DNA from: Rhodotorula mucilaginosa
Taxonomy: Eukaryota; Basidiomycota; Microbotryomycetes; Sporidiobolales; Sporidiobolaceae
Direction of reading: 5' to 3'
DNA: 64,000 bases
Assembly: GCA_034406715.1 (NCBI GenBank)
Contig: CP137879.1
Span: 372,001 to 436,000, forward strand
Position numbers and translations under genes: made by a program. The notes under the pieces were generated by a model, which did no database searches, was not told the origin of the DNA, and worked only from the letters and a program-made list of their open reading frames with translations. Positions 9,594 to 53,751 of the stretch are shown here, piece after piece. Within the stretch, counting starts at the first letter, position 1, and every line of letters starts with the position of its first letter.

Positions 9594-11786
9594 ATGACCG
9601 ACCACTCCCCCGACTACCGCAGCTCCGTCAGGCAGTTAGACGACTCTTACCGCGCACTTGCCGACGCTTGCAGCCAACTGCCCGAGGAATCGGAGGCCCA
9701 CAAGATCGTGAAGCAGCTCGGCTTTCATATCGATGGCTTCGTGGGACAAGAGTGGCCGTTGGAGGTGAACACAGGGCTTGCAGAATTCTACAGTGACTTG
9801 GCAATCGTGATCAAGAACGCACTTGAGTGGGAGGGATATACGGACGCAGCGAGGCAGTCACATGTCGAGCGCCTCCTGGTAAAGCGTCCGAGCTGTTTCT
9901 GAGTATTGGAAGACAAGGCTGATCTTCTGAATGGCAGATTTTGCTCTCTCAGTCTGCATTCTCACTGAAACTTCAGCAGTGCGCCCTCCTGGTGAGTGTG
10001 TCCGTTCAAGAGCTCACGCAGAGCATTGCCACTGAACAACCGCAAGTGTACATCAGGAATGTGACAAGCAAGGTGTGCACGGATCTTCTATGGACAATCA
10101 AATCGTAGCTGATTACTACCTCAACCCTCATGCCTGTGCAGGAGGTGTCCGAAAGCTTCTTGCTCTTTGTGACGCCATACGACAAGCTGCGCTGGCACGC
10201 TCACCCGGGCAATCTGAAATGAGCCCTGCCGACCACATTGGGCTCCTGAATGCCTATCTGACCTCCCTTCTGTTTGCTGCACCCAAAGACGGAGCCTGTG
10301 CCTACCTTGGGCTTGCTGATCCGGAAGTCTTGATTCAGTTCAGTCGGACAATCCGAAAGTACTGCAAAAAACTCGAGGGGGCAACGACTAAGGACAGAGT
10401 GAAGCTCTTGGCGGATCTTGTATGTGCCCTTTTGTTCTTCCCCAGCTCTGCTGTGTGTGCTATCTTTGACTGACGCAACGCAACAAGGCCAAAAATCTCC
10501 TGGGGCCACTGACCGATGCAGTAAGTTTCAGCTCTAATCCAATGCTTATGGAATGCTGACAGGAGTATGACACAGGACAAGTCTGTAAAGCAAGCTGTCA
10601 TGAGAGCTGAAGGAGAACTTGATCCTGTCTGGGCGGCAGCGCAGGCACTGGTGGAAGATTGTGCTCCAGCTTCGCTTGCACAGGCGCAGATTCCCCAGCT
10701 AAAGGAGATCTACCACTGGGTTCATGAGCTTGGGAAGTTCATCACCCGGCTGGAATGGGACCAGTATGACCGGGAGTACCAGAAAGAGGTGGCGAGCCGT
10801 GTGGAAGCATTTTGTCGGATGTTCTCAGGATGCCACCAGACCTCAAGATGGCTTGTCTGGTGAGTCTTGAAGGCTTGCATGCAGAACAACCCTCGCTAAC
10901 AGCAGTCTTGCAGAAGTCGGACAGGACGCGAGAATTGTTTCAGGGCATGATTGAAGGTGCCAGTAAACATCTGATTTGGACCCCTGAGAAGGCAAGTACT
11001 ACTGTATTCTGCCTCATGAACCGCCTTCTGACCATGACAATTCCTTCCCCAGCTCAAACAAGCTCGGAAAGAGGTGAGAGCGACCCTTCAAGTGATCGTC
11101 CAAGCTCCGCCTTTGACTTCCTGCTTTTCGGCGACAGTTCTTTCAAGCTAGAGAGCACCTGTACCGCCAACTTCCGCGCACTGGGGCTACCTTCCAACAA
11201 TGGTTCCAGCACAACACTACCCACTGGCAAATCTGGAAAGGATCAGAGCTCAAAAGGGTCACAGCCCAAGTGGTGTCCCTGTGTGGCAAGCTTCCCGCAG
11301 GGAAGCTAGCAGTAATGGTCAGTCTGCCCTCTCACCTGCTCTCACACGGGCTGACTGATTCTCAGACATACAGGAGGCAGCCCAGCGTCGCGAGAGTTCT
11401 CTTTCAAGGGCACTCTACTGTGCCAACCTCTCTCTCATACTGTGGAATCTCATCCCGGACGATTATGCTAGTTACAAGTCGCCTGTACAGGATCTTCATG
11501 TGAGTGACTGACTTGCCAGACGCTGTGGAGAATGCGCAGGAGGCTAACACAAAGCCTCTCACACATGAAGCGAGCCTTTGTTGCCCGCCAGCAGGAGGCT
11601 GATGCGTGGGCTAAAGAGCAGCAGACCCCGCCTCCTTGTTTACCATTTCTGCACACTTACCTCTATCCGCCATCAGCTCCGAAGCCTGCTGCAGGCCCTG
11701 GCTCCTCGTTTCCAGCTCTGGGTCGCGCCTGCCTCTCGTCTCGCCAAGCCGCGATCTATGGGCGTCGTGCTGACATGGAGTGGTAG
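9594..11786 (+). CDS. Family member A (unrecognised 11-exon helical protein family)
   Basis: Starts MTDHSPDYRSSVRQLDDSYR at 9594; exon 1 ends near 9878. Family signatures are present in order: WPLEVNTGLAEFYSDLAIVI in exon 1; LTSLLFAAPKDGACAYLGLA near 10290; DPVWAAAQALVEDCAP near 10625, with WDQYDREYQKEVASRVEAF after it; FQQWFQHNTTHWQIWKGSEL near 11200; and LGRACLSSRQAAIYGRRADM with TAG at 11784-11786. It is the most divergent of A-F. The end of the DPVWAA exon (about 10835-10860) is out of phase with the next exon compared with B and F, so a small frame change or an altered splice site is likely there. Product function is unknown. Confidence 0.6.
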
Positions 11787-12881
11787 CAGCGTACATTCTG
11801 GTTCTAGTCTTGCAATTTCCATCACGTTGAGCCCTGGCTATGGCGGACAAGGGATGGCTGCAGCTGAAGTGTACATACGCCAGCGAGAGCGAGAGGGCTG
11901 CGTTGTGGCGAAGGGCACAAGGGATTCCGTTGCGCGCCGGACCGAAAGCAGATTTTCGCGCTGGATTTTCTTGACCTTATGGGGCCGCCACGTCAATCGT
12001 TGTGACTTAGACGGCGGTCAAAGCAAGGTCAAAGACCGAATGTCGCGAGATGTTTTCTCGTGAGAAGGGCAACAAACGGCTCTCCCTTGTTGCTGCCATT
12101 CCCATACCGCAAAGCAGTGCCTCGGACATGGCATGAGAGCTGTCTCTGCCTGCTATGAAGCCGTCAAGCCCCGACAAGCCCGCTCTCACTTGCTCGAGCC
12201 GGTAACGAATTCATCACCATTATCATCGTCGCCGAGACGAGGCAAGCCTCACTACGGACCGGCACGCCGCGGGGAGCTGCCGCGCGACAACAGAGCAACT
12301 CAGTATGATCCGCTGCGTGCGTATCTGCTGCTCCTGTTCCACCCACGGCTACCGCTGACCTGTTCCGAGCGAAAACAGTCCGGATCTTTTCCTCGCCGCT
12401 GAGGCGATGCCTGCTCACCAACAAGGTCCTCCCGAGGGGTGCGTTGGGCAGCGCAGAGATACAATTGCCGGTTTTCTAAAGCGCGCTGATCCCGGTCCCC
12501 ACGATTTGCAGACATGATGGTCCGCTTCGAGTTGACCCGCCCGCCGCCGCTATCGTCTGATCCCGTCGTCATAGGAAGCAGTTCCGTTCGCGCTAAGCAA
12601 CAACCCGCCCACAAACTCCTCCTCAAGCCGTCTCGCATCCTTCATACAAGGTTCGATCCCGCCGTCGCGGGTCAAGGAGGTCAGACGACTGGCAAAGGTC
12701 TTTGGGTCACCTGCTGGGCCGAAGCGGTCGAGGCGCTTGCAAAAAAAGGTGCGTGGTCTGGCATGCTCTCGCACGCGCGCTCCAACCTCGAGCCTCCAAC
12801 CTGACGACCCGCCTTTCACGCATCTCCCGCTTCCGCCGCTTCCGCGCAGGCTCCTACAAGCGTCTGCACCCGTCCGCGACC
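11787..12881. other. Intergenic region, no supported gene
   Basis: About 1.1 kb between family member A and the 245-residue gene. Open frames on both strands are short, overlap one another and have no recognisable motif or splice context. A GGTTCGATCC string near 12650 resembles a tRNA T-loop but lacks a matching stem. The right end presumably holds the promoter of the gene at 12882. Confidence 0.5.
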
Positions 12882-17970: not shown

Positions 17971-18002
17971 AGACCGCGGACATGCCGAGTGCACGCACCT
18001 CG
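17971..18002 (+). promoter_or_regulatory. Family-shared upstream element, gene B
   Basis: AGACCGCGGACATGCCGAGT followed by GCACGCACCTCG, ending 79 bases before the ATG of B. It has the palindromic CCGCGG core and the GCCGAG.GCACGC.CCTC tail seen before the other family genes. Confidence 0.7.
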
Positions 18003-18081: not shown

Positions 18082-20106
18082 ATGGACCACGGTGCTCTGG
18101 CCCGCAGTCAGTCGGTCGATCACCTATACAAAGCGCTGCACGCCGTCGAGGCTGCTTGCAGCACGATAGAGCGTCAAAAGACACCTCAGGTCCACCTTCA
18201 CTTGGATTCACTCAAGCGGCGCCTGACAAGATTTGTCGGGATGGACTGGCCAGCCTCGGTACTTGATGGAGTTGCTGAGTTCTACACAGACCTTGCGAGT
18301 GTCATAACGTATAACTTGGGGCGTCGCGAGCTTGAACCGGCGCAGAAGGTCGCCCGGATCGAAGAACTCTTTGTCAGCCTGCTGCCTTCTGATCCGTATA
18401 TTGCAAACGTGTTCCTCCCGCTGACTTACTATGGTCAATAACAGGGTCTTTTCACCGACTCTAGGCTCTTTCTGGACAATCAAGACTGCCACCTCCTGGT
18501 GAGTGTGCTCACTGTATTTGGGAAGAGAAAGAGAGAGCGAGCGTTGACTTGGCACAAAAAAAAAAAAACAGGATACAGCCGAGCGCAAGGGTGCGTTCTG
18601 GCGTCCTGTTCCTGTGGTCTGAGCCTGATGGCCGATGTTAAGGAACACAGAAACCGTTGGGACCCTGCTCAAAGTTTGTCACAACATCCGCACAGGCTGC
18701 CTGAGAAATCTGGCCGCAAAGCATCGTGATGATGTCCTCGAGGATTATGTGGTGCTGTGCCTGTGGCTGAGCGCTCAGTCAAGTTGGCTTGCATACCTAG
18801 GTCTCGCTAACAAGACAGTCGTCAACAAGTACCTGGAGGAGTTCTCGCAGTACTGTCAAGAACTTGCTCAAGTCAGCAGCGTCAAGGACAAAAAACACCT
18901 TGTGGCAAGCTGAAGGTGGCACTCTTCTGTCTGCAGCATGCTGATCCGGCACCCTCCTCAGTATGAGTATCAAGACTTCAGTAGCAGATTTGCAAATCTC
19001 CTGGAACGCGCTGTGAGTTCCGACGCTAACAACAGGTCCGAAGGACCGCAGTTGATCAAAAAAATGCTTTGCAGGATGTCACGGCTCTACGAGCGGTGAT
19101 TCAAGCCGAACAGCCGCATTCTCCCCTCCGGGCCGCAATGCATACTCTCATTGCGGACTGCCGGGAAACAGAACCAAACATCTCCAAGCGCGCTCCTGAA
19201 CACATGCAGGTGGTGCGAGAAGCAGAAGACTTTTCAATGTGGTTCTTCGCCTTCTGTTGGGGTGACAGCAAGGAGCAATACCAGAAGCTGGTCATTGAGC
19301 AAATCAAGGCTCTCTGTCAGAAGCTAGACAGCCTCCGCACAGGGAAACAGCGGCTCACTTGCCTTGTGAGTTCATTCACGTGTCTCTAGCTTTGAAAGTC
19401 TGCACTGACAGCTTTCTGCGCAGGAAGCATCACGGGCAGGCCTAGAAAAGCTTGCAAAGGATATCCACATGAATTGGGATGGTGAAAAGGTCAGACCTCT
19501 GGGACTTTGCAACTCAAAGGATGGTGTCAGGAGTAACTAAAGACTTCATGCTCTTTTCAGGTCAGAGCATCTCGGACTGAGGTGGGTCTAATAGGTATGG
19601 TGAGCTGTTGGCTGCTTTACTGACCTGTTTGTTCTACCCTCTACAGTTTCAGGACGCCCGATCTCGTCTTCTCCGAGCTGTAGCCGCAGCAGGTGATGAG
19701 GACAACACCTTCTCCACGTGGCTGATGCACACAACTAGCATCTGGATGGCATGGACAAGGACAGAGCGCAACCAGGTCACTTGCCAGCTGCGCAGGGTCA
19801 AAGCCAAGCTTAGCAAGGTCCAGAGTTCCCAAGAGAAAACAGAGCTCTCAACCAGAGCGCGACGGCCACAGAGCAAGCTGAGTCGAGCAATCGAGGCTGC
19901 CAACAAACGTTTCGGGCACAATATAAGCCTCACAACACCCCCTGAAGACTATGCAGCAAGTCCCTTTTTTCTATGAATGCGTCGGAGTCATATTTCTGAT
20001 ATCTGGCAATTTTGTTTTTCAGATTTATCTGCCGGCTTTGGGCAACGCCAGACTCTCAAACCGCCAGGCGGCCATTTATTCGCAGCACAGTGGAATTCGC
20101 TGGTAG
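18082..20106 (+). CDS. Family member B (unrecognised 11-exon helical protein family)
   Basis: Starts MDHGALARSQSVDHLYKALH. Exon 1 carries FVGMDWPASVLDGVAEFYTD. Short exons LFLDNQDCHLL and DTAERK follow; the latter ends in phase 1. Then come the TVGTLLKVCHNIRTGCLRNL exon with AYLGLANKTVVNKYLEEFSQ (about 18650-18905), SRFANLLERA, and the exon from 19075 containing HTLIADCRETEPN and WGDSKEQYQKLVIEQIKALC. The later exons are ASRAGLEKLAKDIHMNWDGE, VRASRTE, FQDARSRLLRAV with WMAWTRTERNQVTC, and LSRAIEAANKRFGHN. The last reads LPALGNARLSNRQAAIYSQH, with TAG at 20104-20106. Introns begin GTGAGT and most are phase 0. The reading frame appears open throughout. No signal peptide or membrane helix is visible. 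Confidence 0.75.
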
Positions 20107-20479: not shown

Positions 20480-20510
20480 GTCCGCGGACATGCCAAGCGC
20501 ACGCGCCCCT
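20480..20510 (+). promoter_or_regulatory. Family-shared upstream element, gene C
   Basis: GTCCGCGGACATGCCAAGCG followed by CACGCGCCCCT, ending 89 bases before the ATG of C. Same core and tail as in B, D, E and F. Confidence 0.7.
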
Positions 20511-20599: not shown

Positions 20600-22695
20600 A
20601 TGTCAGACCAGCTAGCTCTCAACCGCCCTTCGGCCGACAGGCTGCTTGCGTCTTTGCGCGAGCTCAGGGCCGCTTGCCAACCGGAGCAAGAAGCTTCGGA
20701 GGAGCCCCTTATACCCGCCGAGACGATGGTCGATTTGGACTTCCTGGAGAAGCGGGTTGCTCTTTTCATCGGCAGGGGTTGGCCAGACAAGGTACTCGAG
20801 GGACTTGCTGAGGTTTACGCAGATGTGGCAGCTTCTGTCAACTTCATACTGGGCCTCGAGGTGTGTACGCCGGCACAGAAGCGTCAAGGAATCTGCACGA
20901 CCCTTGTAAGGTTCCACATGTCTATATGAAAGGCTCGCAGGTTGTGCTCCACACTGAACTTGCATGGACACTCGACACTTAGTACAAATTCCGGTCTTCT
21001 GCTTTCTTCCTGAACAATGAACTCTGTCACATTTTTGTGCGTAAGCGACAAAAAAACTGGTTCAACTGAGATGCTGAATCCTACACGGATGACACAGGAC
21101 ACAGACCAACGCAAGGGTGGGTCTTTCCTGGCGTGCAACGGCGCAGCAATCCTGATTTCGAGTTCTGCAGGAACAATCGAAACCCTATTCCACATCTGTG
21201 CCCGAGTCAGGGAAATCTGCCTCAGCGGGTTGTCTCCCAACAGTCATAGCCGTTTTCAACATGACTATGTGATGCTGCTCCTCTGGCTAGCCATGGATAA
21301 CCATCACCTTGCCTTTCTGGGTCTTGTTGATTCTCAGGTGTTTGAGCAGCATCTCGCAAAGTTCGCTTCATACTGCCAAGACCTGACATCTGCTGGCAGT
21401 GCTCTAGCAAGGTTAAAGGTTATGGTGAGCCGCAGGTTGATTGTGTTTGGGAAGTCAGAGAAGTCCGACTCTTTGGTTCTCTTACACTACACAGGAAGAA
21501 CACATGGATACTAACAGCAGGTTGGTAAAGATTATACACCCTATGGTGAGCATGAGTGGGCAGCTGCTTGTTGGATAATTGCTGACTGCCAAGATACTGC
21601 AGGAGATTGACGCAAAGCGAGCTATGATTGCGGGGGAGCGGCGCCACGTCCCAGTTTGGGCTGCGCTGCAAGCGCTCATTGCAGACTATGAGGATCTGCA
21701 GCTTGACCATACAAAGGTGAATATGAACATAGAGAATGTGTGTGACCAAGCACATTTTCTTGCAGACATGATGCTTGAGTATGAATGGGAAAACAGCAAA
21801 TGGCCATATCAGTTGGAGGTGGCGCAGCAAGTTGACACTCTTTGTCAGAAGCTGGATAGCCTCCTGGACTGGCCAAAGGAGAGGGATTACCTTGTGAGTC
21901 TCAGATCCTATCCATCTCAACAAAAAAAAACCTACACTAAACAGAGCTCATGCAGCGCTCCCAATGGGATGATAAGTTCAAAGAGCTTGCCCACCGAGTC
22001 TCAGCACATTGGGATCCAGAAAAGGTGAACAAGGACAGCTCCCAAGACCATACAGTATGCTGAATACTTCTCAAACCTGTCAGGTCAAAGCCTCTCGCAC
22101 CAAGGTATGGCTGTTTACCGACTGCGAGCGTTTCCTTCACTTGACCATTGTCCTCTTTTCTCCAGTTTTTCAGAGCTCAAAGTGAGCTTGTTGGGGCCAT
22201 ATCTGGCTTTCAAGAAGGCAAGGAATGGAGCGTTTGGCTGCGCCACCGCACTAGCATTTGGGCAGACTGGACAAGAACAGACCGTGGCCGCGTTACGTCA
22301 GCTATCAAGGCCCTCACACGCGAGCTCAACAAGGTTGAAGACAAAGAGGAACAGAAAATGCTCTTGGTGAGTCACCTTTCTGGTTCGTATGTGTTACTCT
22401 GCACACATGGCTGAAACAGTCTACTGCAAACTAAGGATGAAGCTGAGCAACCAAAGAGCCGGCTGCGAAAAGCACTCCGCAAGGCCAACAGACGATTTGG
22501 TCACAACGCCACACACATGGGAGTCTATGAGCATCTCACAGTGAGTTGTGCCTCCCAGCAAACACACTGTTTCTTGCCCACTGACACCTGGTGTGTCAGC
22601 TTGCAGCCTTGCACAGGGCACCAGCTTTGGGCCACACCAGGCTCTCATACCGCCAGACAGCCATTTACTCACAGCACAGTGGCACTCACTGGTAG
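20600..22695 (+). CDS. Family member C (unrecognised 11-exon helical protein family)
   Basis: Starts MSDQLALNRPSADRLLASLR at 20600. Exon 1 has GWPDKVLEGLAEVYADVAAS. The second long exon has ETLFHICARVREICLSGLSP and LLWLAMDNHHLAFLGLVDSQ. The third (from about 21600) has VPVWAALQALIADYEDLQLD and LEYEWENSKWPYQLEVAQQV. The fourth has WSVWLRHRTSIWADWTRTDR (near 22235), followed by LRKALRKANRRFGHNATHMG. The last exon, ALGHTRLSYRQTAIYSQHSG, ends at TAG 22693-22695. Exon order, GTGAGT donors and the phase 1 junction before the ETLF exon match B and F. The neighbours are B upstream and D downstream in the same orientation, so this is a tandem array. Function unknown. Confidence 0.72.
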
Positions 22696-23212
22696 CTGCT
22701 TTGTAGTGAAATGCCGCTGCTGTGTGCTGTGTGGAGTTTCTGTAGATGTCTGTTTTGCTGTGTCTGACCAAAATAAGCAAGAGCGAGAAGCTCGAGGTCG
22801 AGAAAGTCCGGATTACGCTTTGACGGCTATAGCAAACGCGCCCGGCAAAGGTTGCCTTCGCGAATCACGAGAACAGAAAACAGCCAATTGTTGTCACTCT
22901 TGCGAGCAAACCCTCCGCGCTTTTCCGGGGTCCGCCACACGAATCCGCTCGCCCCTTGGAAACTCGCTTCGGACGACTATCACAGGCGATAAGCAATGAG
23001 CCGCGAGTTGCAACTTCCATCTGTGCCTGCCCACATGACGCCGGGTTCCCATGCCGTATAGGGGGGAGGATGCCCTCCGATAACCAACTCCACGGCGACG
23101 AGGTCCATAATGCATAGCGACGCAGGCGTGGGCCTCGCCAAGAATCGTTGTCAGCTATAGCTCCTGTCCCCCAGAACTTTCCAGCATCTTGGCCTGCGCA
23201 CGCGCCTCCCGA
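22696..23212. other. Spacer between family members C and D
   Basis: Contains GGCTATAGCAAACGCGCCCG at about 22826, followed by related sequence to about 22880. A diverged copy lies at about 25676-25740, upstream of the family relic, so intergenic DNA was duplicated along with the genes. No gene is supported. Confidence 0.5.
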
Positions 23213-23240
23213 GTCCGCGGACATGCCGAGCGCAGAGCAC
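23213..23240 (+). promoter_or_regulatory. Family-shared upstream element, gene D
   Basis: TCCGCGGACATGCCGAGCGC followed by AGAGCACG, ending 73 bases before the ATG of D. An extra GCGCACGCGCCTC block lies just upstream (about 23196-23208), so the two halves of the motif appear in swapped order here. Confidence 0.65.
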
Positions 23241-23313: not shown

Positions 23314-25038
23314 ATGGCAGAGGCATCTGCAGAGAAAGCAATCTACCAACTGCACGTTGCCGTGCAGACACTCAGGCACGTCAGCAGCCGCTTGCAGGCA
23401 CAGCCACCCAAACAGTCTGAGGCCAAGCCACACCTGTGGTTGAAAGGCCTTGAAGATCGCGTTAAGTCCTTCCTTGCGCGAAAACCACCATTGCGTGTAC
23501 TGCAGGGCATTGGTCAATTCTATATGGATATGGCTCTTTCATTGAATTGGCTGCTTTCGTTCAAAGCGACAGCCGTTGTCAATTCAGCGTTCCAAATTCA
23601 AGAGGTTGAAGGCATTTTTGTGAGTTTTTGCGGCGGTCTCCAGCCTGATCCTGTGACTAATCTGCAAGAGGCAACAGGAAGACTTTTCCTGCAGCTCGTT
23701 TTCCCTAGTGGATAAGAACTGTCACCTCCTGGTGAGCTCATCCTCCTAGAATCAAACGAGAAAGCGAAGCATGCATTAAGTTTCACTTAGGGGAAAACAG
23801 AACTCGGATGTGCACATGGGTGGAGTGTTGTCTCATCTCCTTCTGCACTTGGATATAAGTCTGACACTACGCCTTCCAGAAACACTTGGCGAGATGCTCG
23901 ACATTTGCTGTGAACTCAAAGATAGTTGTACAAGATCAGCTTCCAAAGACAGCCGGCACGGTCTCATGATGGCCTATGTGGCTGTGGTCCTCTGGCTTAC
24001 TCACCGGGACCACCTTCTGGTCTATCTGAGTCTTGCCAACCAAGATGTGGTGAAAGACTGCCTCGCGGGACTCTCAAACTACTGCAAGAAAGTGGCCAGT
24101 GCTACCCTTGCACGCAGACTGCTAATTCTTGTAAGTTGTGCCTGTCCCCTTCTCCCCCTGCATACACTCATTGCCCTTGTTCTTCAGCAGGAGGGCGGAA
24201 AAAAACACTCCGGGCTTGGAAAGCTGGTCACAAAAATTGTAAGCAATTGAAGACCTGCTTGTCAGAAACCATATCTGACTGTGACTTTCAGACCAAGGCA
24301 GCCAGGGAAGCTTTGGATGATGCCAAGCGGCAGCAAGAGACAGCAGATCAAGAAGGCAGCAATACTGGGCAAGAACTCCGCAACATTGCACAAGAAAGTG
24401 CTGTAGCTCAAGCTGCCCCTCCAGTCAATAAGGTGAGCGCAGGCATATGGTAGGGAACAATTTGGCACAGCTGAACATTCTTACGCTCCAGTTCTGCACT
24501 GCTAGGGTCAGGCTTTTTGAGGCTGTACCTAACAGCAAAGGAGGCAACCACTGGGTTTTCTGGTTTGGGAAACAGGTGTTGCTTTGGAAGCACTGGTCAA
24601 AGAAGTCTCGTGGTAGCGTTGTGAGGAGCATGCAGGGGCTCCTGACTGAGCTTGAAAAGGCCACGACGGAGGAAGAGAAGATCAAAATCCTTGTAAGCAG
24701 CTGGTTGCTCTGCAGGAGTATTCTACAGCATAGACTGATGTCATTACATTTCAAGTTGTCAGCACAAGATCCAAGAAGTGCACTGCATCAAGCCATTGAT
24801 CACGCAAACCAAGCGGCTTCCGCCAGAGCCAAGCTACCTGCTGCGGAAGCTATCACGGTCAGTTGCTCGCACTGTGAAATTTCACACACTGGGTTTTCTA
24901 ACATCAGAGTTGGTACTGGATATAACAGCATAATCTGCAGAAGTACTGGTTTGAACGGATGTCTCAGACTCTGGGTCACCCTGAACTTTCACATCGCCAG
25001 CTGGCTGTCTATGGACGGCACGGTGGCACTGGCTTGTA
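23314..25038 (+). CDS. Family member D (unrecognised helical protein family)
   Basis: Starts MAEASAEKAIYQLHVAVQTL at 23314. Exon 1 carries RVLQGIGQFYMDMALSLNWL. The next long exon has ETLGEMLDICCELKDSCTRS and LVYLSLANQDVVKDCLAGLS. Further exons include TKAAREALDDAKRQQETADQ, FWFGKQVLLWKHWSKKSRGS near 24560, and HQAIDHANQAASARAKLP. It ends TLGHPELSHRQLAVYGRHGG at TAG 25036-25038. Compared with B, C, E and F, the exon with the WAALQALI motif is shortened or replaced by a Lys/Gln-rich coiled-coil-like stretch, so D may be a degenerate or re-specialised member. A 23-bp tandem duplication (TGTATTACTTGTAGATCAGT.., about 25066-25110) lies just downstream. Confidence 0.6.
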
Positions 25039-26195
25039 GCTGCTGTGTGCTAGCGGGACCCAAATGTGTATTACTTGTAGATCAGTGCATGTATTACTTG
25101 TAGATCAGTGCACAAGTCTGCTCGTAGCGAGTGTGAGTGACTGGAGGTCAAACATGAAGATGCCCAGGGCACTGGGCCAGCGTGCTGCGTGAGTGAACGG
25201 CTCTATGCAATGCAAACAGTCTCTACAACACACCTGGGCAAGCGTGCTGCGTGGATGTATGGCTGAAGAACAGCCACTTCACCTCACCGCTGCGCCAGGA
25301 TCACTTCGCTCCTCTCGACTCGCACCTCCCCTCATCCACCTGCCTCAACAAAACACAAGTTCACGCTCAAGCAAGCAATATAACAAACAGACTCTCCTCA
25401 TCAACTAATCATCCCCGTGAACAATCCATCTCGACAGCGCCACCTCGTTCACATCCGAGACCACCCTTCAACATTACTGGATTCTATTTGTCAGCTTGTG
25501 TGGTTGGAGAGCTACAGAAAGACTGGTCACCAGGATCCTACTTGTCAGCCCATGTGGTGAGCGAGAGAGAATCCAAGTGAGCTCGCAAGCTTGCGCAGGT
25601 CATCTGTCTCGCGTGAGTCCCCGTGAGCGAGGTCCGCGCCGGGAAATTTGCACGAACCCGATCCAAGAGGCCTGTGCAGCTATAGCAAGCGTGCCCGGTA
25701 AATGTTCGCTTCACACGTCACAGGAACTGGGTACAGAAGAACAAGGAAATGAGCATGATTCAAAAGAGACGTGTGTTGGCGCTAGTGCTGAAGGATGTAG
25801 GTTTCCTGCAGTGGCTGAAGAGAAGTGTAAATGTTGGTGCTATGCAAAGACAAGCAAGATTGTATCTACCTGAAGAGAAGTGTAAATGTCAGTGAGGAGA
25901 AGAAGAGAAACAGGGGAACATGACGAACTGATGACGGTCCTCGGCCCTCCGGATGCGTTTGAAACAAAACCTTCCTCCGAAATTCCTCCCGACCACAACT
26001 TCTCCGTACTTCCCAACTACGTGAGCAAGGAGGGGAGTGCTAGAGAACAGAGCTGAGACTAAGTCCGAGCGTTCGTTCAGCACGAGAAGATCCGTCCTTT
26101 GTGGAAGGTCTTGAGGTGACATCCGAGCCCTTACGTCCAGCCCAACAGAGTAGATTGTCTGCATGAAGGTCCTCCCCTTCCGGTATAGGCTCCCG
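25039..26195. other. Flank of the family array, no intact gene
   Basis: Holds a short tandem duplication near 25066-25110, a repeated CTGAAGAGAAGTGTAAATGT at about 25814 and 25872, and a copy of the C-D spacer sequence at 25676-25740. Plus-strand frames such as GPPDAFETKPSSEIPPDHNF near 25940 may be remnants of the family gene whose last exon survives at 26196-26290. No complete gene is supported. Confidence 0.5.
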
Positions 26196-37981: not shown

Positions 37982-39584
37982 TTACAGAGGTTCGGACCTC
38001 ATTCCGCGGGTGATCAAATCGGCCAACGCTTCTGGACCTGCCGCCGGGTCGATCTTGCCGTGCCTATCGACGATATCCCGCAACACCATTTGCCACTCGG
38101 TGAGCCGCCCCTTGCTAGAACCCTCACGGTAGCACGTCAGCGTGAGCTCGGTGGTGAAGGAGCCAATGTCTTCCCCAAGCGCTCGCATCAAGAGCATGAC
38201 GGTTTGCGCACGGATTTTGTCGTCCCAGTCCTGCGAGACGGTCCCGTCCTTCTGGATTGTGAGAAACGGCGGGCGAGGCCCCCCGCGCATGGCCCTGAAA
38301 AAGGGTCCGGATCCGATGCTGAACAGGTAAGGGTCCCGGTCTTGATTGCTCGCGGTATAAGTCGTTTCGGCGAACGGGACCGACAGAGGGATGTCGCGGA
38401 GAAACTCTTCGATCGTGAGGGTAGCGGGAAAGTCGTCTTCGTTGTCAGAGTCGTCAGAGTCAAAGTCGTCTCCGTTGCTGGGCAAGTTGACGCAGAGGTT
38501 CATGATTGGCCGTGTCGTGCCGAGGTTGCGCAGTTGTGGCCAGACCTTGCGGACATACCGCTCCAGTCAAGTGAAACAGCCGAGGGTCAGGCGCTGGAGG
38601 GGTTCCTTGCCCTGCGAGAGGCGCGGGAAGAGGCCAGCCGGGACTGGACCGATCCAGCTGACGACTCGGAGTGGTGCGGCGGGCGGGAGAAGGTTGACTA
38701 CATGTCCGAGCAATTCCGCCTTTGTCTGGAAGGTCGCGACAACGAGCTCTTGCAAGGTGTGCACCAGCTGGATCGTCTTGGTCGCAGCTTCGATCGCCGC
38801 GGCGTCATCCTCGGCGTCGTCGAACATGTTGTCGTCCGCTGGGCGCTCAGGCGAGAGCCACAGATCGAACGTCTCCAGACTGGCGATGCATGGGAGCCTA
38901 GCCAGAAGTGGGTAGACACGCAGAATGGACCCGGCCCACACAAGGTAGATGCGGGCGAGGCGTGGCCAAACGGATCCGGGATCCCCCGCGCAGAAGGCCC
39001 GCTTGATGGTCGACTCGATCCCGACGGCGAGGCGGAGCTCTTGAATAGTTCTTGTAGGTTGCGCATGCTGACCATGATGGCGCAGAGGGTGTCGTCGTCC
39101 GCCATAGGTCGATTGAGTCCGGCCAGAATGGCGGCTTTGATCTCGGCCTCCTCCGCGTCGTCCTCGCCGTCTGGCTCACCATCCAAGAGCCTCTCCTGCC
39201 GCCTTTCATGAGCGCTCTGTATGGCGTTACTCAGGAAGCGGCACACGTGCACGAGCGGCAGCAGCTTCGCGCCCGGACCGTTTGTCGTCGGGTCGAAAAA
39301 CGCCACCGCCTGGGCATCACACGGGTCGACCTGCACCGCCTCGAACGCGACAGGCTCGAGGGCGGCTCGCCAAGCCTTGCAGACGAGGCCGATCTCGGTG
39401 GTGCGGCGGATCTTGGTGCGGAGAGACTGCCAGTCGTGAAAGAGGTGCCGAAACGTCATGTCGAGCAGTTCGGGGGGCATGCGAGCGCAGGCGCCGCGCG
39501 GCTGCGAGTCTAGAGCCCGCAATCAAGTTCATCAGCGCTAGTCTTTCCAGTTGCCAGTCACTCTGGGACACGTAGCGCACCCAT
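37982..39584 (-). pseudogene. F-box-type protein 3, decaying
   Basis: Begins MGALRVP at 39584, paralogous to the MGAPHVLL first exon of gene 1, with an intron whose acceptor is ACTCGCAG. It continues ACARMPPELLDMTFRHLFHD and IRRTTEIGLVCKAWRAALEP (F-box). Two lesions are visible against gene 1. There is a frameshift near 39030-39050, between NLQELFK and VGIESTIKRAFCAGDPGSVW. A TGA replaces the codon after RLTLGCFT near 38573. Downstream the frame is open again through YVRKVWPQLRN to the stop at 37982. The amount of decay suggests recent loss. Confidence 0.75.
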
Positions 39585-39960
39585 ACGTCGCGTTGGAAAC
39601 TCGCTCGGCAAACTTAATGGGGGAGAGGGCGCGTCTCTTGCAGTTGCAGCGACAGCGAGATTGGGCTTGTCAGAAAAGGCGACGAGTACTGATGTAGCTA
39701 CAAGGCTCGGAAAGGGGCAGTGTGAGCAAGTGAGCGAGGAGAGAAGTGCCTGTCGGAGAAAGGAAACGTGCCCGCTGCGGTACTTTTCAACGGACTACTG
39801 AATATCAAGCTGCTCGTTGCTTGTACATGGCGTACATAGGGCAGACCGTCTTCATTTCTGCGCACCAGCGGGACCTCAATCCGCTACGCTCGAATCTTCT
39901 GAACCCGGGTCACCTCCCCAAACCTCCCTGCTCCTCAGCTGGCTCGACTGCGCCCGGCCC
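39585..39960. other. Spacer in the F-box cluster
   Basis: Noncoding spacer between the decayed genes 3 and 4. Nothing else recognised. Confidence 0.45.
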
Positions 39961-41426
39961 CTAGCGAGGGACCACCTTGAAAGAAAGCACCAAGCGACCT
40001 CGCGCATCCACGATCTTTTGCGAGACAAGATGCCATTCTGTCAGAGTTTCCGCGTCGCCATAGCGCGCAAAGAGGTGCAGAGCCATTTCGTCGTCGTCCT
40101 CGTCGTCGTCGACTTCGGGTTGCATGGCGATTGTGACGGTCTGGACGCACTCCTGACCTCGGAATTTGCGCGAGCGAGACGAGGCCGTTGTCGAGAAAAG
40201 TTGTCATAGGCGCGCGCGGTCTGGTCCGGATACGCGAGAAGGTTTCGTCGGCTTGGAAAGGGTAGCTGAAATGTCCGTCATAGTCGGAATTGCGCTCAGT
40301 CTCGACATGGAGGATGTTTGGCGGGAGGTTGTTCAAAAACTCGCCAACCGCGAGCAGCGAATCGGACGAATCCGGTTCGTCCGGGTCGGATCTCAAGTCG
40401 AACGAGACGCGCTCAATCATGCGGGCGCCGAGGAGGCGTAGATGAGGCCAGGCCGAGCAAGCGCATGCTTCGGGAGACGGTTTGGTGCATCCCAAGGCGA
40501 GGTTGGGCAGACACTCTTTGCCGCGCCCGAGTTTTTCGAATAGAGCTGCCGGCGTGATTCCGAGCCAAGTGACGGATTCGAGCGGCGCGACGCGCGAGAC
40601 CAGGCGAGCGAAGGGAGCCAGAATCTCGGCACTGGTTTTGACCGATGATAAGAACAAGTCTTCGAGCTGTTCGAGCGGTCGGACCAGACTCGCGGCGCCC
40701 GGTTCATCGTCGTCGTCGTCGGCGCCCTCCTCGCCGGACAGAGTCCCTTCAACCTTGGCCGGGATGGAGAGCCTGAGGCTGCGTAACTCGGGTAGCAGAT
40801 ACAGTTGGGCTGCAACCGGTACGAGTTCTGGGATCGGGCGCGACCACGTCAAATCGAGCGACGCGAGTCGCGGTCAAACGAGTTTGGGATTTGTGAAATC
40901 GAAACGCCTGGCTGATGTCTTGCTCAACTCCTATGACGACTAGTGACTGTAGATTGCGCACGTGGACGAGGATGGCGCAGGGGGTGCCGTTCTCCGCCAT
41001 GGGTCGATCGAGATCGGCTAGAACGGCGGCTTTGACGTCGCATTCCGCCGAAGGTGCGTCGTCGTTGTTGCCGTCATACGGGCCGGCGCTCGGGCTCAAG
41101 CTCCTACGCCGACGCTGCCGCCGCAACTCAGAGACGTCCTCCGTAGCAGTGCTCCAAACGTGGCACGCGTGCACGAGCGGCAGCAGTTTCGCGCCCGGTC
41201 CGTTCGCGGTCGGATCAAAGTACGCCACTGCCTCGGCGTCGTACGGGTCCAGCTGCAGCGCGTCGAATGCGACGGGCTTGACAGCAGCTTTCCAATCCTT
41301 GCAGACGAAGCCGATCTCGGTCGCGCGGCGGACTTTGTCGTGGAGATATTCCCAGTCGGGGAAGAGGTACCGAAATGACATCTCGAGCAGCTCGTGCGGC
41401 ATGCGAGCGCAGGCAGATGTTGTCAT
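39961..41426 (-). pseudogene. F-box-type protein 4, decaying
   Basis: Starts MTTSACARMPHELLEMSFRY at 41426, with ATEIGFVCKDWKAAVKPVAF completing the F-box. Three lesions relative to its paralogues are visible. The frame changes near 40900. A TGA stands where the family has Trp in the xPRLASLDL segment (about 40875). The frame changes again near 40190, before the C-terminal QECVQTVTIAMQPEVDDDED and FARYGDAETLTEWHLVS segments. The ancestral stop is TAG at 39961-39963. It is the most damaged of the four cluster members. Confidence 0.75.
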
Positions 41427-43428: not shown

Positions 43429-44199
43429 AGGAGGAGGATGCACACTTCAAGCACCAGATTGGCGGCACGATGGTCATGCAGATCCCTTCGGAAGGACGTC
43501 GGGGAGTAAAAGCTTCGAATGGAACTCGCAAGCGTATCCAACAGAGTAGTCCCTTGTCTGAACCGCAATGTCACAGTGTGCGGATTGACCTTAGACTGCT
43601 TCTGCCAAGCAGAAGGCAATTGTTGCTGCGGTGGCGGAGTGGACGTTTCCAAGCGGCAGCAAGCTCTTGGACAAGCCGCAGGATACAATCTGACTAGCAC
43701 TATAGTAGGGTACACCTTGTCCAGGCCATTGTGAGTGCCGCAGTGGAAGCGGGACAAGGAACCGGCGCGTGAGGAAAAAGAAAGTGAGGGAACCGTCTCT
43801 TCAATTGCTCTGCTCTCTCCTGTCCTATAGTGCCGGTTTGCGTGTGCCCTGTAGGCTACTACATGTGTGTACAAGCATCTGAGACTAGACTACACAGCAT
43901 TTTTTTCGAGTTTTGGCTCAAGAAAATTCGTTCTGATCGTCTTCTTGCGAGGATTAATGCTGAGACCAGTCTATCGACTTCAAGTCGATTCCCTCAATGA
44001 TCATGTCCCATAGCGGGGACATATCACGCAGTCGGGTCACGGCAGAGACCACCTTGTCCACGACAAAGTCGACTTCGCCCTCGGTCGTGAACCGTCCGAG
44101 TCCGAATCGGATCGAACTGTGCGCCATCTCGTCGTCGGCGCCGAGGGCACGCAGAACGTACGACGGCTCGAGCCAAGCAGAAGTACAGGCAGAGCCGGA
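43429..44199. repeat. Duplicated block, copy 1 (NFS1 3' end and flank)
   Basis: 771 bases nearly identical to 45819-46590, in the same orientation. It begins AGGAGGAGGATGCACACTTC in both copies. It includes the NFS1 terminal exon and about 500 bases of downstream flank. Most differences cluster in the last 40 bases near 44165-44199. Confidence 0.9.
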
Positions 44200-44215
44200 G
44201 AAAGCGGTACTGTGC
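43954..44215 (-). pseudogene. NFS1 3'-terminal fragment
   Basis: Encodes [20 protein letters not shown] and then the last 55 or so residues of NFS1 ([20 protein letters not shown]) with the same stop. It has no upstream NFS1 exons, so no PLP-binding domain. The 3' part is almost identical to the functional gene, while the GSACTS region is clearly more diverged and recognisable to about 44215. It is a truncated copy, not expected to make an enzyme. Confidence 0.9.
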
Positions 44216-45818
44216 AGGTTCAGAGCGAAGACAGTGACTCGGAAAACGGTGCACATGAGCTCGATGTGCAGGGATCATTCTTGGTCAGCTTGTCGTAGCT
44301 TGACGCGGTCCTGAGTCTCCCTCTAACTATTCCACCCCACGGCTGGAACTATTTTCGGTACTCATTCTGAAGTCCATAGCCAAGGGGACGAGCGCAAGAC
44401 TTGAGAAGGTAACGTTGTGCTCACCGCCCAGGGCTTTCTTCTCTCATACTATACCGCTTGGAGAAGCATCACATCTAGCTTAAATAGCAAGTGAATTACT
44501 TGTGGCACTGCTCACCTTACCATCCATGCGGGAATCCGCCGACCTTTGGAACCCAGCGCTGCCCTTGCGCCTCATCCCACTGAAACATACTGCAGTCGGC
44601 CGGGCACTCGATCCCCTCCGGAAAAGGAAGAATACAGGCTCTGATCTGCGTTGATCACCCCTCTGCCCAACTCTGAGCTTCAGACTACGGCGCCAAAATT
44701 GCCGCAGATGAATATGTTTACATGTTTTGGCCGAATCAAAGTCTGGCGACGATGGTGGCGATGAAATGGAGTGTGCATTCGCGCAAGTGCCTCCCTGCGC
44801 TTGTGTTGGCGTCCGTGAAATTCCCCCCGGATGCGGCATCCGGTATCAGCTAAATGTTGCTGGCTTCTGGCGCAATTGACTATCTCTTGCCTACTTCCTT
44901 CTGCGTTCGCCTGCGCTAAGGTCAAGCACATGAGCCAATGATCAAAAGCCTCAGAATCAAGATCTCCACGCTCTGTCAGAAGTGCAAACAGATGGGAAAA
45001 GTCAGGCAGCCCAAGACGAAAGGCACGGGCGTTGCGAGGCAGGCAAGCATTCGGACCAAGATCTTCACAGGTCAACACCACAGGTCAACACCGTATTGAG
45101 CTGGTGGAAGCGCGCAACACAGCTATCACAAGAGTAGTACACATTCGCTGCTTGTGTCAACTGTATGCCTGCAGGGTGACCCAAAGAAGTGGAGGAGAAA
45201 GAGTAAAGTCGAACATCCTCTTTCGAGTTCTCATCGCCAGTCGCGTCGAGAGTCTCTTCAATAGGCGCATGAGACAACCATTGAAATTTTGACGATTCTA
45301 AGGCGCATTGGAACAGATTACCAGTACCACGCCCGCACCCACGGAATCCGGAGAACGGATTCAAGGAAAAGATTTTGCAGACACCTTTGTGGGCATGCGC
45401 CACATTGCATGTGGCCGCCTGCTCTTGAGCATCAAGATTAATTGCCTTACCTCTCCTGAATGTAACAAAGAGAAGATTGCTGACCACCAACTCCCGGGCC
45501 CAATACTGCACTTGGGTTGCGCAGATGGCAACGGGGGATGCCGCTGTGGCGGCACGATCCTAGAGCGGAGCAGGCTGGACAGTCTTCTGATGTACAAAGC
45601 TTAAGCATGCTATAGAGACGCTTGACTGAAACTGACTTTGTGCGTGAACTGCTGAGGCCGGCACTTGGACGGATCTTTGCAAAGGACAGAAGTGGCGTCA
45701 GTGCAAGATTTAGTGATGATCCACAATCTGGAACAGCGTCAAGTGTCGGAAACATACCCAGCTGTGTCAAGTAGTGTGACAGACAGTAGGATGCTGTCAT
45801 CTGAAGGCAGAGATGCAG
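44216..45818. other. Region between the two duplicated blocks
   Basis: 1.6 kb without a gene model I can support. Minus-strand open stretches (FSHLFALLTERGDLDSEAFD and following near 44950; SHAPIEETLDATGDENSKED near 45250) look weakly coding but lie in different frames without clear introns. GTGTTGACCTGTG occurs twice in tandem near 45070-45100. It may be a decayed gene. Confidence 0.4.
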
Positions 45819-46590
45819 GAGGAGGATGCACACTTCAAGCACCAGATTGGCGGCACGATGGTCATGATTGATCCCTTCGGAAGGACGGCGGGGAGTAAAA
45901 GCTTCGAATGGAACTCGCAAGCGTATCCAACAGAGTAGTCCTTTGTCCGAACCGCAATGTCACAGTGTGCGGATTGACCTTAGACTGCTTCTGCCAAGCA
46001 GAAGGCAATTGTTGCTGCGGTGGCGGAGTGGACGTTTCCAAGCGGCAGCAAGCTCTTGGACAAGCCGCAGGATACAATCTGACTAGCACTATAGTAGGGT
46101 ACACCTTGTCCAGGCCATTGTGAGTGCCGCAGTGGAAGCGGGACAAGGAACCGGCGCGTGAGGAAAAAGAAAGTGAGGGAACCGTCTCTTCAATTGCTCT
46201 GCTCTCTCCTGTCCTATAGTGCCGGTTTGCGTGTGCCCTGTAGGCTACTACATGTGTGTACAAGCATCTGAGACTAGACTACACAGAGCATTTTTTTCGA
46301 GTTTTGGCTCAAAAAAATTCGTTCTGATCGTCTTCTTGCGAGGATTAATGCTGAGACCAGTCTATCGACTTCAAGTCGATTCCCTCAATGATCATGTCCC
46401 ATAGCGGGGACATATCACGCAGTCGGGTCACGGCAGAGACCACCTTGTCCACGACAAAGTCGACTTCGCCCTCGGTCGTGAACCGTCCGAGTCCGAATCG
46501 GATCGAACTGTGCGCCATCTCGTCGTCGGCGCCGAGGGCACGCAGTACGTACGACGGCTCGAGCGAGGCGGAGGTACAGGCGGAGCCGGA
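45819..46590. repeat. Duplicated block, copy 2 (native NFS1 3' end)
   Basis: The copy attached to the complete NFS1 gene; see 43429-44199. A Cys-rich plus-strand frame (ATG 45908, VCGLTLDCFCQAEGNCCCGG, stop at 46123) is open in both copies; in copy 1 it is at 43519-43734. It has no other support as a gene. Confidence 0.9.
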
Positions 46591-49181: not shown

Positions 49182-49211
49182 ATCCGCGGACTCGCCGAGC
49201 GCACGCGCCTC
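49182..49211 (+). promoter_or_regulatory. Family-shared upstream element, gene E
   Basis: ATCCGCGGACTCGCCGAGCG followed by CACGCGCCTC, ending 79 bases before the ATG of E. Near-perfect match to the F and B elements. Confidence 0.72.
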
Positions 49212-49290: not shown

Positions 49291-51399
49291 ATGCCAGCCG
49301 AGTTGCCCGCGCACGATACAGCAGTCACAAAGCTGCACTCTTCGGTTCGCAAAGTCAAAAGAGCTCTCCGCCTTGTGAAGGACATAGCGAAACCTGAAGT
49401 CGAGATCAGCGGGCACTGGGAGAGCGTGCAATCCCTTGACATCCGCGTGAAGCATATGGTCGAGAATAGGTGGCCGCTCGAGGTCCTCGACGGAATTGCT
49501 GGAGTTTACGAGGATTTTGCAAACGCCCTTCAGTGCAATTTGGGGGATGGTGCCCCTGACCGAGACCATCTCACCATTGTGAGCGGACTTTGCGTAAGTT
49601 TTGCCACCGTTACCCTTACAAGTAGGGCTGTATACTGAAGATTGCGTGAAAACCCAGGAATCTTTCTTTGTATCCACCTTCTTCCTGAAAGATAAGCGCT
49701 GTTACCTGTTTGTGAGTCTGCTGCCCCAGACCACGGAAGCAGAAGATACTGAGCTTGGCATGGACACGATTACAGGAGACCCCGGCACAAAAGGGTAACT
49801 TTGTCTTGTCTGGCTTTTTCCGGCAGGGCAAGCTTGCTCACCGAGCCCTCGCAGATACCCTTGTGACCATGCTGCGCATGGGCCACGAGCTTAGAACAGC
49901 TTGCTTTAGCAACATTGCGCCAGATGACCATGGTGATATGCTGACAGGTTATGTGTTCACGATGGTCTTGCTTACCCAGCGAAAGTTGTTCCTTGCCTAC
50001 CTGGGGCTTGCCAACAAGACTCTTGTGAACCGCCACTTGACTGAACTTTCTGCGGAGGTTCAGCGGCTGGCTCCTGCCAACTATGTCAACAAAGAGGAGA
50101 TTCTTGTAAGAAACGAGAACAACGGTGTTCGGTGTGTGCAGCTGCCTACTGATCCATGCTTGATGCCAGCTCTCATTCACAGATGACCATGACACCGGTG
50201 TTGGGAGGATTTTTGTCCCTGTGGTGCGTTGCTGGATGGGCATGATTCATGCAGGCTGTAAATCTCCAGGCAGTGACTTTCTCTACAGTGCAAAACAGCA
50301 GCAGAGGCAGTCAAAAAGGCTGAGCGGTACTCACCGGTCACCGTGCCCCTGCGTGCCCTTGTTAAGGACTGCAGTCCCATCACTGAGCCTGGACTGGACC
50401 AGCCAGGATGTGATCCGGTTTGCCAACAGCTCTCTGCTGCAGCAAAAAAGCTTGAGGCATGGTTACTCGGCTTTGAATGGCAAGACAGTAAGGCTGACTA
50501 CCAGTCAAAGATGGCACAAGAGGTGCAAAACCTCCGTCAGCGGTTGCTTGGCCTCCAGACTGTACAAGAGAAGCTCAATTACCTGGCAAGTCTTGAGAAG
50601 CCACCATATCACGTAGCACTGACCACTGTCCTGTAGGAATCACCCGAGGTCAAAGAACACCTAAGCACGCTTGCTTTGGAAATCCCTTTGCACTGGTATT
50701 CAGACAAGGTGATTCTTGTCCTGCATGCCCACCTATGCAAGAGTTGCTAAACACTGCGCACTGTTCAGGTCAAGTCCTCTCGCGACAAGGTAGGTGTAGG
50801 ATCATGGCAGGAGATATCAGTGCAGCTGAACTTGCTCACTATCAGCTCTCCAGTTCTGTACAGCTGTTGAAGACCTCTTCAAGACAATTCCAAATCATCC
50901 TCCAGTATTCAACCGATGGAAAGTCTGGCTCTCAAAGGAAACAGCCATTTCGCGGTCCTGGACAAGGTCCGAACGCGACAAGGTGACACGCCAGTTGGTG
51001 GAGCTCAAGGAGGAGTTGCATGAGCCCGCAGCCAATCAACATGAACTCTTGGTGAGTCAGTCTCCCTTAGTGAGCTGAAATTGCCCAAATAGACCAGTCT
51101 TTGCTGTACAGGCAACGGCCAGGAAATCCGACAGTGGATTGAGTCAAGCCGTCAGAACTGCAAATGGAAGATTTGGCCACAACAGCAAAGCGCTAACCCA
51201 CCAGGAAATCTTCAGCGTAAGTGACAGGCATACTCCTTGAAACTTTGGCCTGACACCCTCATTGCGACGACCGCAGGGAATTTGCAGCGATCGTGACAAA
51301 TCGCTTAGGAGTCAGCATGAGACGCCCGCAATGGGTCACGCCAGGCTTTCATACCGTCAAATGGCTATCTACAGAAGGGATGAGGTGGCTCATTGGTAG
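49291..51399 (+). CDS. Family member E (unrecognised 11-exon helical protein family)
   Basis: Starts MPAELPAHDTAVTKLHSSVR. Exon 1 has NRWPLEVLDGIAGVYEDFAN. Short exons include STFFLKDKRCYLF and ETPAQK, the latter ending in phase 1. The next long exon has DTLVTMLRMGHELRTACFSN and LAYLGLANKTLVNRHLTELS. The middle exon contains PVTVPLRALVKDCSP and LGFEWQDSKADYQSKMAQEV. It is followed by KEHLSTLALEIPLHWYSDK, then an exon with a WKVWLSKET-like segment near 50920, and LSQAVRTANGRFGHNSK. It ends MGHARLSYRQMAIYRRDEVA at TAG 51397-51399. Exon order and phases match B, C and F. F follows immediately in the same orientation. Confidence 0.72.
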
Positions 51400-51589: not shown

Positions 51590-51620
51590 GTCCGCGGATT
51601 CCCCGAGCGCACGCGCCTCC
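51590..51620 (+). promoter_or_regulatory. Family-shared upstream element, gene F
   Basis: GTCCGCGGATTCCCCGAGCG followed by CACGCGCCTCC, ending 79 bases before the ATG of F. The whole E-F spacer is only 300 bases, which limits the F promoter to about 190 bases upstream of this element. Confidence 0.72.
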
Positions 51621-51699: not shown

Positions 51700-53751
51700 A
51701 TGACAGACAAGTCAACCACCTACCGTGAATCAGTCAAGGCTCTACATGCTTCAGTCCGCAGTCTCCTAGATGCTTGCAAACTAGTGAAGCAGGCCGAACC
51801 ACAGTCGGAGACACGCGCGCGCTGGGATAGCTTGGGATTCCTCCAGAGTCGCGTCAAGCGTTTTGTCAAGAAGAGGTGGCCGCGCAAGGTACTCGACGGA
51901 CTTGCTGGATGCTACACAGACTTGGCATTTGCGATGCAGTGGATTCAGTCCAATACGGAGCGGACTGCAGAAGATCGGCTTACAGAACTGAACCACCTAT
52001 TTGTGAGCTTGGCGCGCTTCTATGAGGCTCTGGTTGATGCTAAGTGTGTACACCGGTGGGACCAGGACCTGTTCTACAACTCCACCCTGTTCCTAGAAGA
52101 CCGACACGGGCACCTCTTTGTGAGTCTCTTCCATCAAGTCTAAGCAAACAATGCTGATCTTCGGACAAGTAACAACCAGGACACGCGCGCACACAAGGGT
52201 ATGCACACTTTTGCTATCTCCTGCGACCTCAGCCTGACATCGAGCTCTGCAGAAACGCTCGCCACTATGCTTGACAGCTGTTATCAGCTCCGAACCAGTT
52301 GCCTCAAAGGCGTGGCCGAGGGGGATCGCGCATATTTGCTGCGGGAATACGTCTTCCTGCTTCTCTGGCTTACGCGCGAAAGTGTCTCCCTCACCTACCT
52401 GGGTCTGGCTGACAGCGCGCTTGTGAAACAAAAGCTGGACAACTTTTCCCAGCACTGCAAGGCACTGGCCAACGTCACTGTTGGTGACGACAAGGCAGAG
52501 CTCCTTGTGAGTCATGCAGCATGTAATGACCCTTGTCCTGATACACCATCCTCACCTGAGCCTCTTGTGCAGTCCGAATACATGCAGGACAACAGCGGTT
52601 TTCGGAGGCTCATTTCGAGTGCTGTGAGTACAGGCTTTGCACCTGCTGGTGAGACTGCTTACCAAGTTCCTATATAGGCTATCATAGCACACCAGGCTCT
52701 GATCAGATCTGAGCGCATGTACCTGCCAGTCTGGGCTGCACTGCAGGCCCTCATCACAGACTACTCTGACCTTGAACAGGACACGAAAAAGCGGAGCAAG
52801 GATCTCAACCAGCTCATTCAAGGAACAAAAACATTTGCAGACTGGCTGCTTGGCTTCGAGTGGGAAGACAGTTACATGGGTTGTCAACGGAAGATTGAAC
52901 AGCAAATTGACACCCTGCGTGGAGCCATGGAGAACCTCCCAACCTGGCAAGACAAGCTGGATTACCTTGTGAGTTCAGATCCTTTGTACAGTATGGAGAA
53001 AAGGTACCTTGACAGGAGCCCTTGCAGAACTTGCACCGAGGGCACTTTGAAGAGCTTGCGATGGAAATTCACCTGCATTGGAATCCGAAGAAGGTGCAAG
53101 CTTGTCCCTCTGCTCAGCGCTGCTTACAGCCATTTACTGATCATCTTGCAAGTGTACCAGGTAAAAGCATCTCGGGAACAGGTAGGCAGTGTATCGGCCC
53201 TATGAAAGGCAGCACTGGTTGACCTATCCTCTCCGCAGTTTTGCGTAGCGCAAGAGCAGCTTTCTCAGGCTACACCCCTTGAGGAGGATGGCGAGGCTTG
53301 GCACAGCTGGCTCCTGTGCACAACAAGTATCTATCAAGCCTGGACAAGGGCAGAGCGCGACCACGTGACAGATGAGATGAACGAGCTCGCAAACAAGCTT
53401 AGTAAAGTCCGACGCATCAAAGACAGGATGCAAGTTCTAGTAAGTTGCTCCCTCCTCTGGTGAGGTATCACTGAATGTGTCTTGGCCTTTAGGGGATTGT
53501 GGTTGATGGTATGTACGGCAGAAGAACGCGCAGAAGCCGCAAGGTGAGCTGTGCAAAGCCATTGATGCTGCCAACAAACGCTTCCATCACAATGCTGCAG
53601 TAAGTGAACCATGGCTGCAAGGGATTACACTGTCTCCTGTCGGCTAATCACTGAAAAATAGCCTCAGCTGCCAGCTTTGGGTCACACCAGGCTGTTGTAC
53701 CGCCAGATGGCTATTTACGGGCAGCGTGGAGGAGTTTCTTGGCAGTTGTAG
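51700..53751 (+). CDS. Family member F (unrecognised 11-exon helical protein family)
   Basis: Reference member of the family; every exon reads cleanly. E1 51700-52002 (KRWPRKVLDGLAGCYTDLAF); E2 DLFYNSTLFLEDRHGHLF; E3 DTRAHK, ending in phase 1; E4 ETLATMLDSCYQLRTSCLKG with LTYLGLADSALVKQKLDNFS; E5 SEYMQDNSGFRRLISSA; E6 YLPVWAALQALITDYSDLEQ with LGFEWEDSYMGCQRKIEQQI. E7 is LHRGHFEELAMEIHLHWNPK; E8 VKASREQ; E9 AWHSWLLCTTSIYQAWTRAE; E10 LCKAIDAANKRFHHNAA; E11 LPALGHTRLLYRQMAIYGQR, with TAG 53749-53751. It encodes roughly 410 residues, helical throughout, with no signal peptide or membrane segment. Introns are phase 0 except the one after E3. Function unknown. Confidence 0.8.

Follow-up and report, generated by a model that had tools for sequence, protein, structure and literature searches.

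The locus considered here can be compared, in its general kind, with fungal tandem gene families that are lineage-restricted (orphan), and such families usually come without a functional handle. The locus lies in Rhodotorula mucilaginosa, in a window of 64,000 nucleotides that corresponds to C16:372001-436000 (contig C16, CP137879.1) of a 20.35-Mb genome of 19 contigs; coordinates below are window positions unless a contig number precedes them. Between 9594 and 53751 a spliced-alignment script, with models checked by hand both by eye and by script, finds six related genes, A to F, all on the + strand. That these genes form one family with a shared promoter element can be stated with high confidence. 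As in other orphan tandem families, there are several paralogues at one locus with a shared gene structure, the multi-copy cluster lacks a recognised domain, the pattern is one of birth and death, and the exon structure predates the duplications. A-F differ from such families in having one uniform scheme of 11 exons, among them a mini-exon of 19 nt, and in a promoter element that is far more conserved than its surroundings and whose full form was found only in this family.

Membership of all six genes is evident from profile scores. A search profile built from B, E and F, with A, C and D left outside it, scores its own genes at 1307-1339 and the others at 721 (C), 359 (A) and 294 (D). Forty control stretches of 2,600 nt, taken from 20 places in the window on both strands, reach a maximum of 32 with a median of 1. 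When the window is scanned with sliding stretches of 3,500 nt, scores outside the A-F genes stay at or below 82, and no seventh copy stands out on either strand with this profile.

The gene models share a distinctive architecture. C, E and F have 11 exons each and identical intron phases (0,0,1,0,0,0,0,0,0,0); in the open models every intron is in phase 0 except the one after the 19-nt mini-exon, which is in phase 1. The original prediction was right on this point, having placed a single phase-1 join before the exon encoding ETLxTML and phase 0 elsewhere. Exon 2 is 54 nt long in all six genes, the mini-exon (exon 3) is 19 nt in five and 16 nt in A, and exon 8, present in five genes, always measures 21 nt; exons of 16-21 nt make the family a useful test for fungal gene predictors. 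The introns number 57, of which 54 are GT-AG and three GC-AG, with a median length of 62 nt. Third-position GC in B, C, E and F is 0.57-0.61, compared with 0.75 and 0.71 in two adjoining open frames. The shared exon order and fixed architecture that had been claimed belong to a real multi-exon paralogous family, on which the spliced models agree. The description of a six-member, 11-exon family holds for the six members, but the count of 11 is exact only in C, E and F and is kept in layout by A, whereas B has 10 exons and D nine.

Four genes are open from ATG to stop, with pairwise amino-acid identities of 30-39%. Gene B (18082-20106, 478 aa) consists of exons 18082-18372, 18445-18498, 18572-18590, 18651-18901, 18962-19012, 19075-19365, 19424-19489, 19561-19581, 19647-19955 and 20023-20106, the last including the stop; it has 10 exons because canonical exons 9 and 10 are fused, and its splice donor after exon 4 (GTGGCA) is weak. 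Gene C (20600-22695, 488 aa) has exons at 20600-20905, 20983-21036, 21098-21116, 21171-21424, 21495-21545, 21603-21893, 21956-22024, 22084-22104, 22166-22366, 22436-22540 and 22600-22695. Gene E (49291-51399, 485 aa) is assembled from 49291-49593, 49658-49711, 49776-49794, 49855-50105, 50170-50223, 50289-50585, 50637-50708, 50769-50789, 50854-51051, 51112-51216 and 51316-51399, and gene F (51700-53751, 473 aa) from 51700-52002, 52066-52119, 52180-52198, 52253-52506, 52573-52623, 52678-52968, 53028-53093, 53161-53181, 53239-53439, 53522-53599 and 53668-53751.

The remaining two genes have lost parts of this scheme. Gene D (23314-25039) keeps an open frame of 407 aa, and all eight of its introns are GT-AG. 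Its exons (23314-23619, 23678-23731, 23801-23819, 23880-24130, 24188-24238, 24292-24432, 24492-24692, 24756-24857 and 24941-25039) number nine because exon 6 is shortened, its 3' half being gone, and canonical exons 7 and 8 are absent. In the diverged gene A (9594-11786) all 11 exon equivalents have usable splice sites (9594-9878, 9938-9991, 10057-10072, 10142-10419, 10488-10520, 10576-10859, 10914-10991, 11053-11073, 11138-11317, 11374-11499 and 11685-11786); exon 6 is 284 nt long and the frame does not continue through it. Gene A is therefore probably a pseudogene, the alternative being an assembly error. Both genes had been correctly listed as members, but the loss within D, the frame loss in A and the shared promoter element had gone unmentioned. 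With one frame-broken and one exon-shortened member, A-F lend themselves well to following how a clustered orphan family ages and what becomes of it.

The promoter element, 27 bp long, occurs on the + strand in A, B, C, E and F; counted from its start, its distance to the ATG is 107-119 nt. It lies at 9487-9513 in A (107 nt before the ATG), 17973-17999 in B (109 nt, with three mismatches to the pattern), 20481-20507 in C (119 nt), 49183-49209 in E (108 nt) and 51591-51617 in F (109 nt). Gene D has a rearranged version at 23196-23240 (+), in which the 5' 21 bases remain unaltered at 23214-23234, with their start 100 nt upstream of the ATG, and the CGCACGCGCC half stands upstream instead of downstream. 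Mean pairwise identity is 85% within the element and 26-36% in each neighbouring 27-nt block. Because flanks of equal age have become randomised while the element stays similar, the 27 bp are read as constrained. Furthermore, an 11-mer is common to at least five of the six upstream regions, and 500 dinucleotide shuffles reach 5 or 6 bases. Across the genome the full pattern, with up to three mismatches, has five matches, all at A, B, C, E and F (control, 0).

The 5' end of the element recalls a described regulatory sequence, the pleiotropic drug response element (PDRE) of Saccharomyces Pdr1/Pdr3, whose consensus is given as TCCGCGGA (PMC5539612). This 8-bp palindrome begins the element in C, D, E and F and has one mismatch each in A and B, placing an exact match to the PDRE sequence (TCCGCGGA or TCCGTGGA) upstream of four of the six genes. 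In A-F, however, the palindrome sits in an asymmetric 27-bp element with a 17-bp core, at a fixed strand and distance. The link to Pdr1/Pdr3 is taken as a resemblance only, and any Pdr1-type factor is putative. Separately, a seventh sequence resembling the element's first 21 bases, with two mismatches, occurs outside A-F at 58041-58061 (+), where 0.19 such sites would be expected by chance in the window.

Database searches gave no handle on the encoded proteins, in line with the original statement that the family is not recognised. In four members compared with Pfam, no family reached its curated cut-off (best E 0.016; for B the three listed families all fall under their own cut-offs, and the other members were judged by E-value), and no profile match to PDB sequences was found at E <= 0.001 (best E 0.12). 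The profile match to a known domain family or repeat element that had been named as a possible refutation did not arise in either database. Comparison of exons 1, 4, 6 and 9 revealed no internal repeats (hhalign probability at most 1.9%), and searches of an open-licence library for the family, lineage or motif turned up no paper on the family. Exon 1 of F is predicted to form a helix bundle, with a mean predicted local distance difference test score (pLDDT) of 85 and a predicted template modelling score (pTM) of 0.73. Its VIA-align list is topped by the plant Rx coiled-coil domain (Z 9.2), a score that helical bundles reach by common arrangement. A model of exons 4-6 is all helical, at low confidence (mean pLDDT 59, pTM 0.35). 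In all four proteins no 19-residue window exceeds 1.6, and the proteins are therefore read as soluble.

The reading that we favour, by a little over even chances, is that A-F encode co-regulated, soluble helical-bundle proteins under purifying selection, whose molecular function can so far only be proposed. The genes would have arisen by old tandem duplications and been maintained by purifying selection, some being lost from time to time by birth and death, as in the frame-broken A and the internally shortened D. Their products would be soluble, mostly alpha-helical intracellular proteins of ~55 kDa in which exon 1 encodes a leading four-helix bundle. A sequence-specific regulator, most simply a putative zinc-cluster factor reading the palindrome TCCGCGGA, may bind the element, and A-F would be transcribed together because this regulator binds the element they share. 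Co-regulation seems fairly probable, judging from the promoter sequences. A role for the paralogues as helical-bundle binding or scaffold modules, with roles partly divided, in a condition-specific response can be suggested only tentatively and is rather unlikely. The sharply bounded element, whose core is common to other orphan-looking arrays, offers the handle that orphan families usually lack: expression of the element-bearing genes, together with the binding factor, would reveal the condition in which A-F act.

Several results weigh against this reading. On the protein side, Foldseek found no match at E <= 0.001 for either the F exon 1 model or the exon 4-6 model, and the latter is weak and contains read-through intron residues within the chain. 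On the promoter side, parts of the element are not confined to the family. The first 21 bases, with up to two mismatches, have 25 genome matches, six in the family and 19 outside (control, 4), and the 3' 16 bases, with up to one mismatch, have 12, four in the family and eight outside (control, 2). The 17-bp core, TCCGCGGACAAGCCGAG, also stands before unrelated genes and at places with no recognised gene, and it may therefore be a promoter component of general use rather than a specific switch.

It is accordingly possible, if on the unlikely side, that the element is a general core-promoter element that brings no family-specific shared regulation. The core has 87 genome sites with up to one mismatch, 21 of them exact (control, 0; the reversed pattern has no match), and the genes downstream are varied, including one for a Frag1/DRAM/Sfk1-type membrane protein; these counts and the occurrence of element parts outside the family are what such an element would lead one to expect. 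A general element does not readily explain, however, why all 27 bp are constrained amid randomised flanks, or why the full-length form was found at A, B, C, E and F only.

The distribution of the core shows that it is a genome-wide element that sometimes lies near tandem orphan genes. Thirty-three of the 87 sites have a further site no more than 5 kb away; in 1000 random trials the mean was 3.4 and the highest count 14. All 20 pairs so spaced are on one strand. The surroundings of the core were viewed in 11 regions with grouped sites (L080-L089 and L091) and six others (L075-L079 and L090). By eye, tandem related open frames lie downstream of the core in five of the 11 grouped regions (L080, L081, L084, L088 and L089), and none were recognised by eye in the other six, a comparison made without a systematic test. 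Eight open frames from these five regions were compared with Pfam; one, from L089, is above the cut-off (Frag1/DRAM/Sfk1) and seven are not. L080, L081, L084 and L088 thus appear to add four more arrays in which orphan-looking genes follow the core in tandem, the scanned pieces having no Pfam match above cut-off. Remote homology between A-F and exon profiles from L080, L081 and L084 was not detected (probability at most 6.6%, with positive controls at 98.0-99.5%).

A wider proposal, which we regard as doubtful, is that clustered, lineage-specific genes of red yeasts form a genome-wide programme with TCCGCGGACAAGCC as its control sequence. One factor would switch on mutually unrelated orphan arrays together (C16 A-F, C10 102-110 kb, C7 1104 kb, C7 1292 kb and C8 416 kb), and A-F would be marked by their own 3' extension of the sequence. 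Two other groups of cores were noted. Three cores lie within 4.1 kb in L091 (C14:50300-54460), with no recognisable long open frame downstream, and three on C4 (520629, 525321 and 530013) follow one another at intervals of exactly 4692 bases, which suggests that a unit of this length was recently repeated in tandem.

Within the genome the family is restricted to the one cluster. Searches with F and with B returned at least 28 exon matches each at E <= 1, with 28 of 28 on C16 between 381594 and 425748, and at this threshold neither query found copies outside the A-F cluster in the 20.35-Mb genome. Farther afield, a full-length family profile gave no match among the 8000 best-sharing candidates from a large protein collection; this search is insensitive, because an exon-level query found P0035, a relative of 287 aa and so inside the length range, which the full-length profile had missed. 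A profile of exon 4 plus exon 6 matched 15 short open frames in the collection, the weakest at E 1.1e-13. Two of these (P0040 and P0041) are the window's own, leaving 13 external fragments, for which the best match is C in eight cases (64-99% identity), F in four (72-95%), B in one (84%) and E in none; P0049, the C relative at 64%, looks rearranged. Scans of bacterial/archaeal and viral contigs gave 595 and 79 pattern matches, respectively, none of them confirmed.

Single-exon trees, from which P0040, P0041 and P0049 were left out and in which P0035 was used for exon 6 only, place external fragments with individual paralogues. The C set is firm (support 100/99 for exon 6 and 100/100 for exon 4), as is the B pair (100/100); for the F set, exon 6 gives moderate support (89/92) and exon 4 no resolution. 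It follows from this grouping with B, C and F that the split among these genes predates the external lineages. The neighbourhood is probably conserved as well. A WD40 open frame adjoining the family has relatives in Rhodotorula dairenensis (64%), R. pacifica (61%), Rhodosporidiobolus species and R. toruloides. The F relative P0035 and P0004, a relative of the WD40 neighbour, probably lie on one contig, as both list a longest contig of 23,666 bases, which would mean that the F-WD40 neighbourhood is conserved.

Rates of change point to constraint on these proteins. All six pairs of B, C, E and F are more alike at codon positions 1 and 2 than at position 3, and in the three pairs of C, E and F homologous introns have a mean identity of 55-58%, little above the 53-54% of non-homologous introns; this contrast of exons with introns and among codon positions is coding constraint. 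Pairwise ratios of nonsynonymous to synonymous substitution (dN/dS) among B, C, E and F, calculated by the Nei-Gojobori method (NG86), average 0.28-0.45 and are only rough, because dS is saturated (1.4-2.4). P0035 is 72% identical to F over exon 6 and 67% over exon 4, and P0004 is 81% identical to the WD40 protein; from this one fair comparison the family appears to change somewhat faster than its neighbour, but not strikingly so.

These values bear on the original prediction of fast-evolving paralogues under diversifying pressure, and on the related idea that A-F form a repertoire for self/non-self or parasite recognition that diversifies rapidly, its paralogues being selected to differ. The pairwise dN/dS analysis gave no sign of dN exceeding dS, and external relatives of B, C and F retain 64-99% identity over single exons, so the claim of diversifying pressure is not upheld. 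The low identity among paralogues fits old duplications better than unusual speed, because dN is not above dS, external relatives are conserved and the rate is not strikingly above that of the neighbour. A recognition repertoire is improbable on the same grounds, to which the lack of any Pfam recognition or effector domain can be added.

A transposable-element origin, with A-F as remnants or domesticated coding parts, would account for an unrecognised multi-copy coding sequence with recent duplications nearby (43429-46581, 98%, and 58346-63507, 93%), but is very improbable given that matches to the two query proteins, F and B, are confined to one 44-kb cluster of the 20.35-Mb genome with no dispersed copies, that the genes share a strand, conserved introns and a promoter element, and that no Pfam transposase or polymerase matches.

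The window holds other repeated sequence, and no Rfam family or tRNA was found in it. On the minus strand, 33890-41426 contains some four related genes in tandem, at a spacing of ~2-4 kb (repeat families D1, D5, D8 and D11). One of seven fragments from this array (36772-37524) matches F-box-like, just under the cut-off. The array is a tandem neighbour of A-F but represents a separate family, in which the A-F profile finds nothing. The segments 43429-44191 and 45817-46581 are a recent direct duplication, 98% identical, with no further copy found in the genome. A second direct duplication, in pieces that are 83-94% identical, joins 58283-60319 and 62680-63809, and a third, inverted copy of one of its pieces lies at C16:451290-451795 (78% identical).

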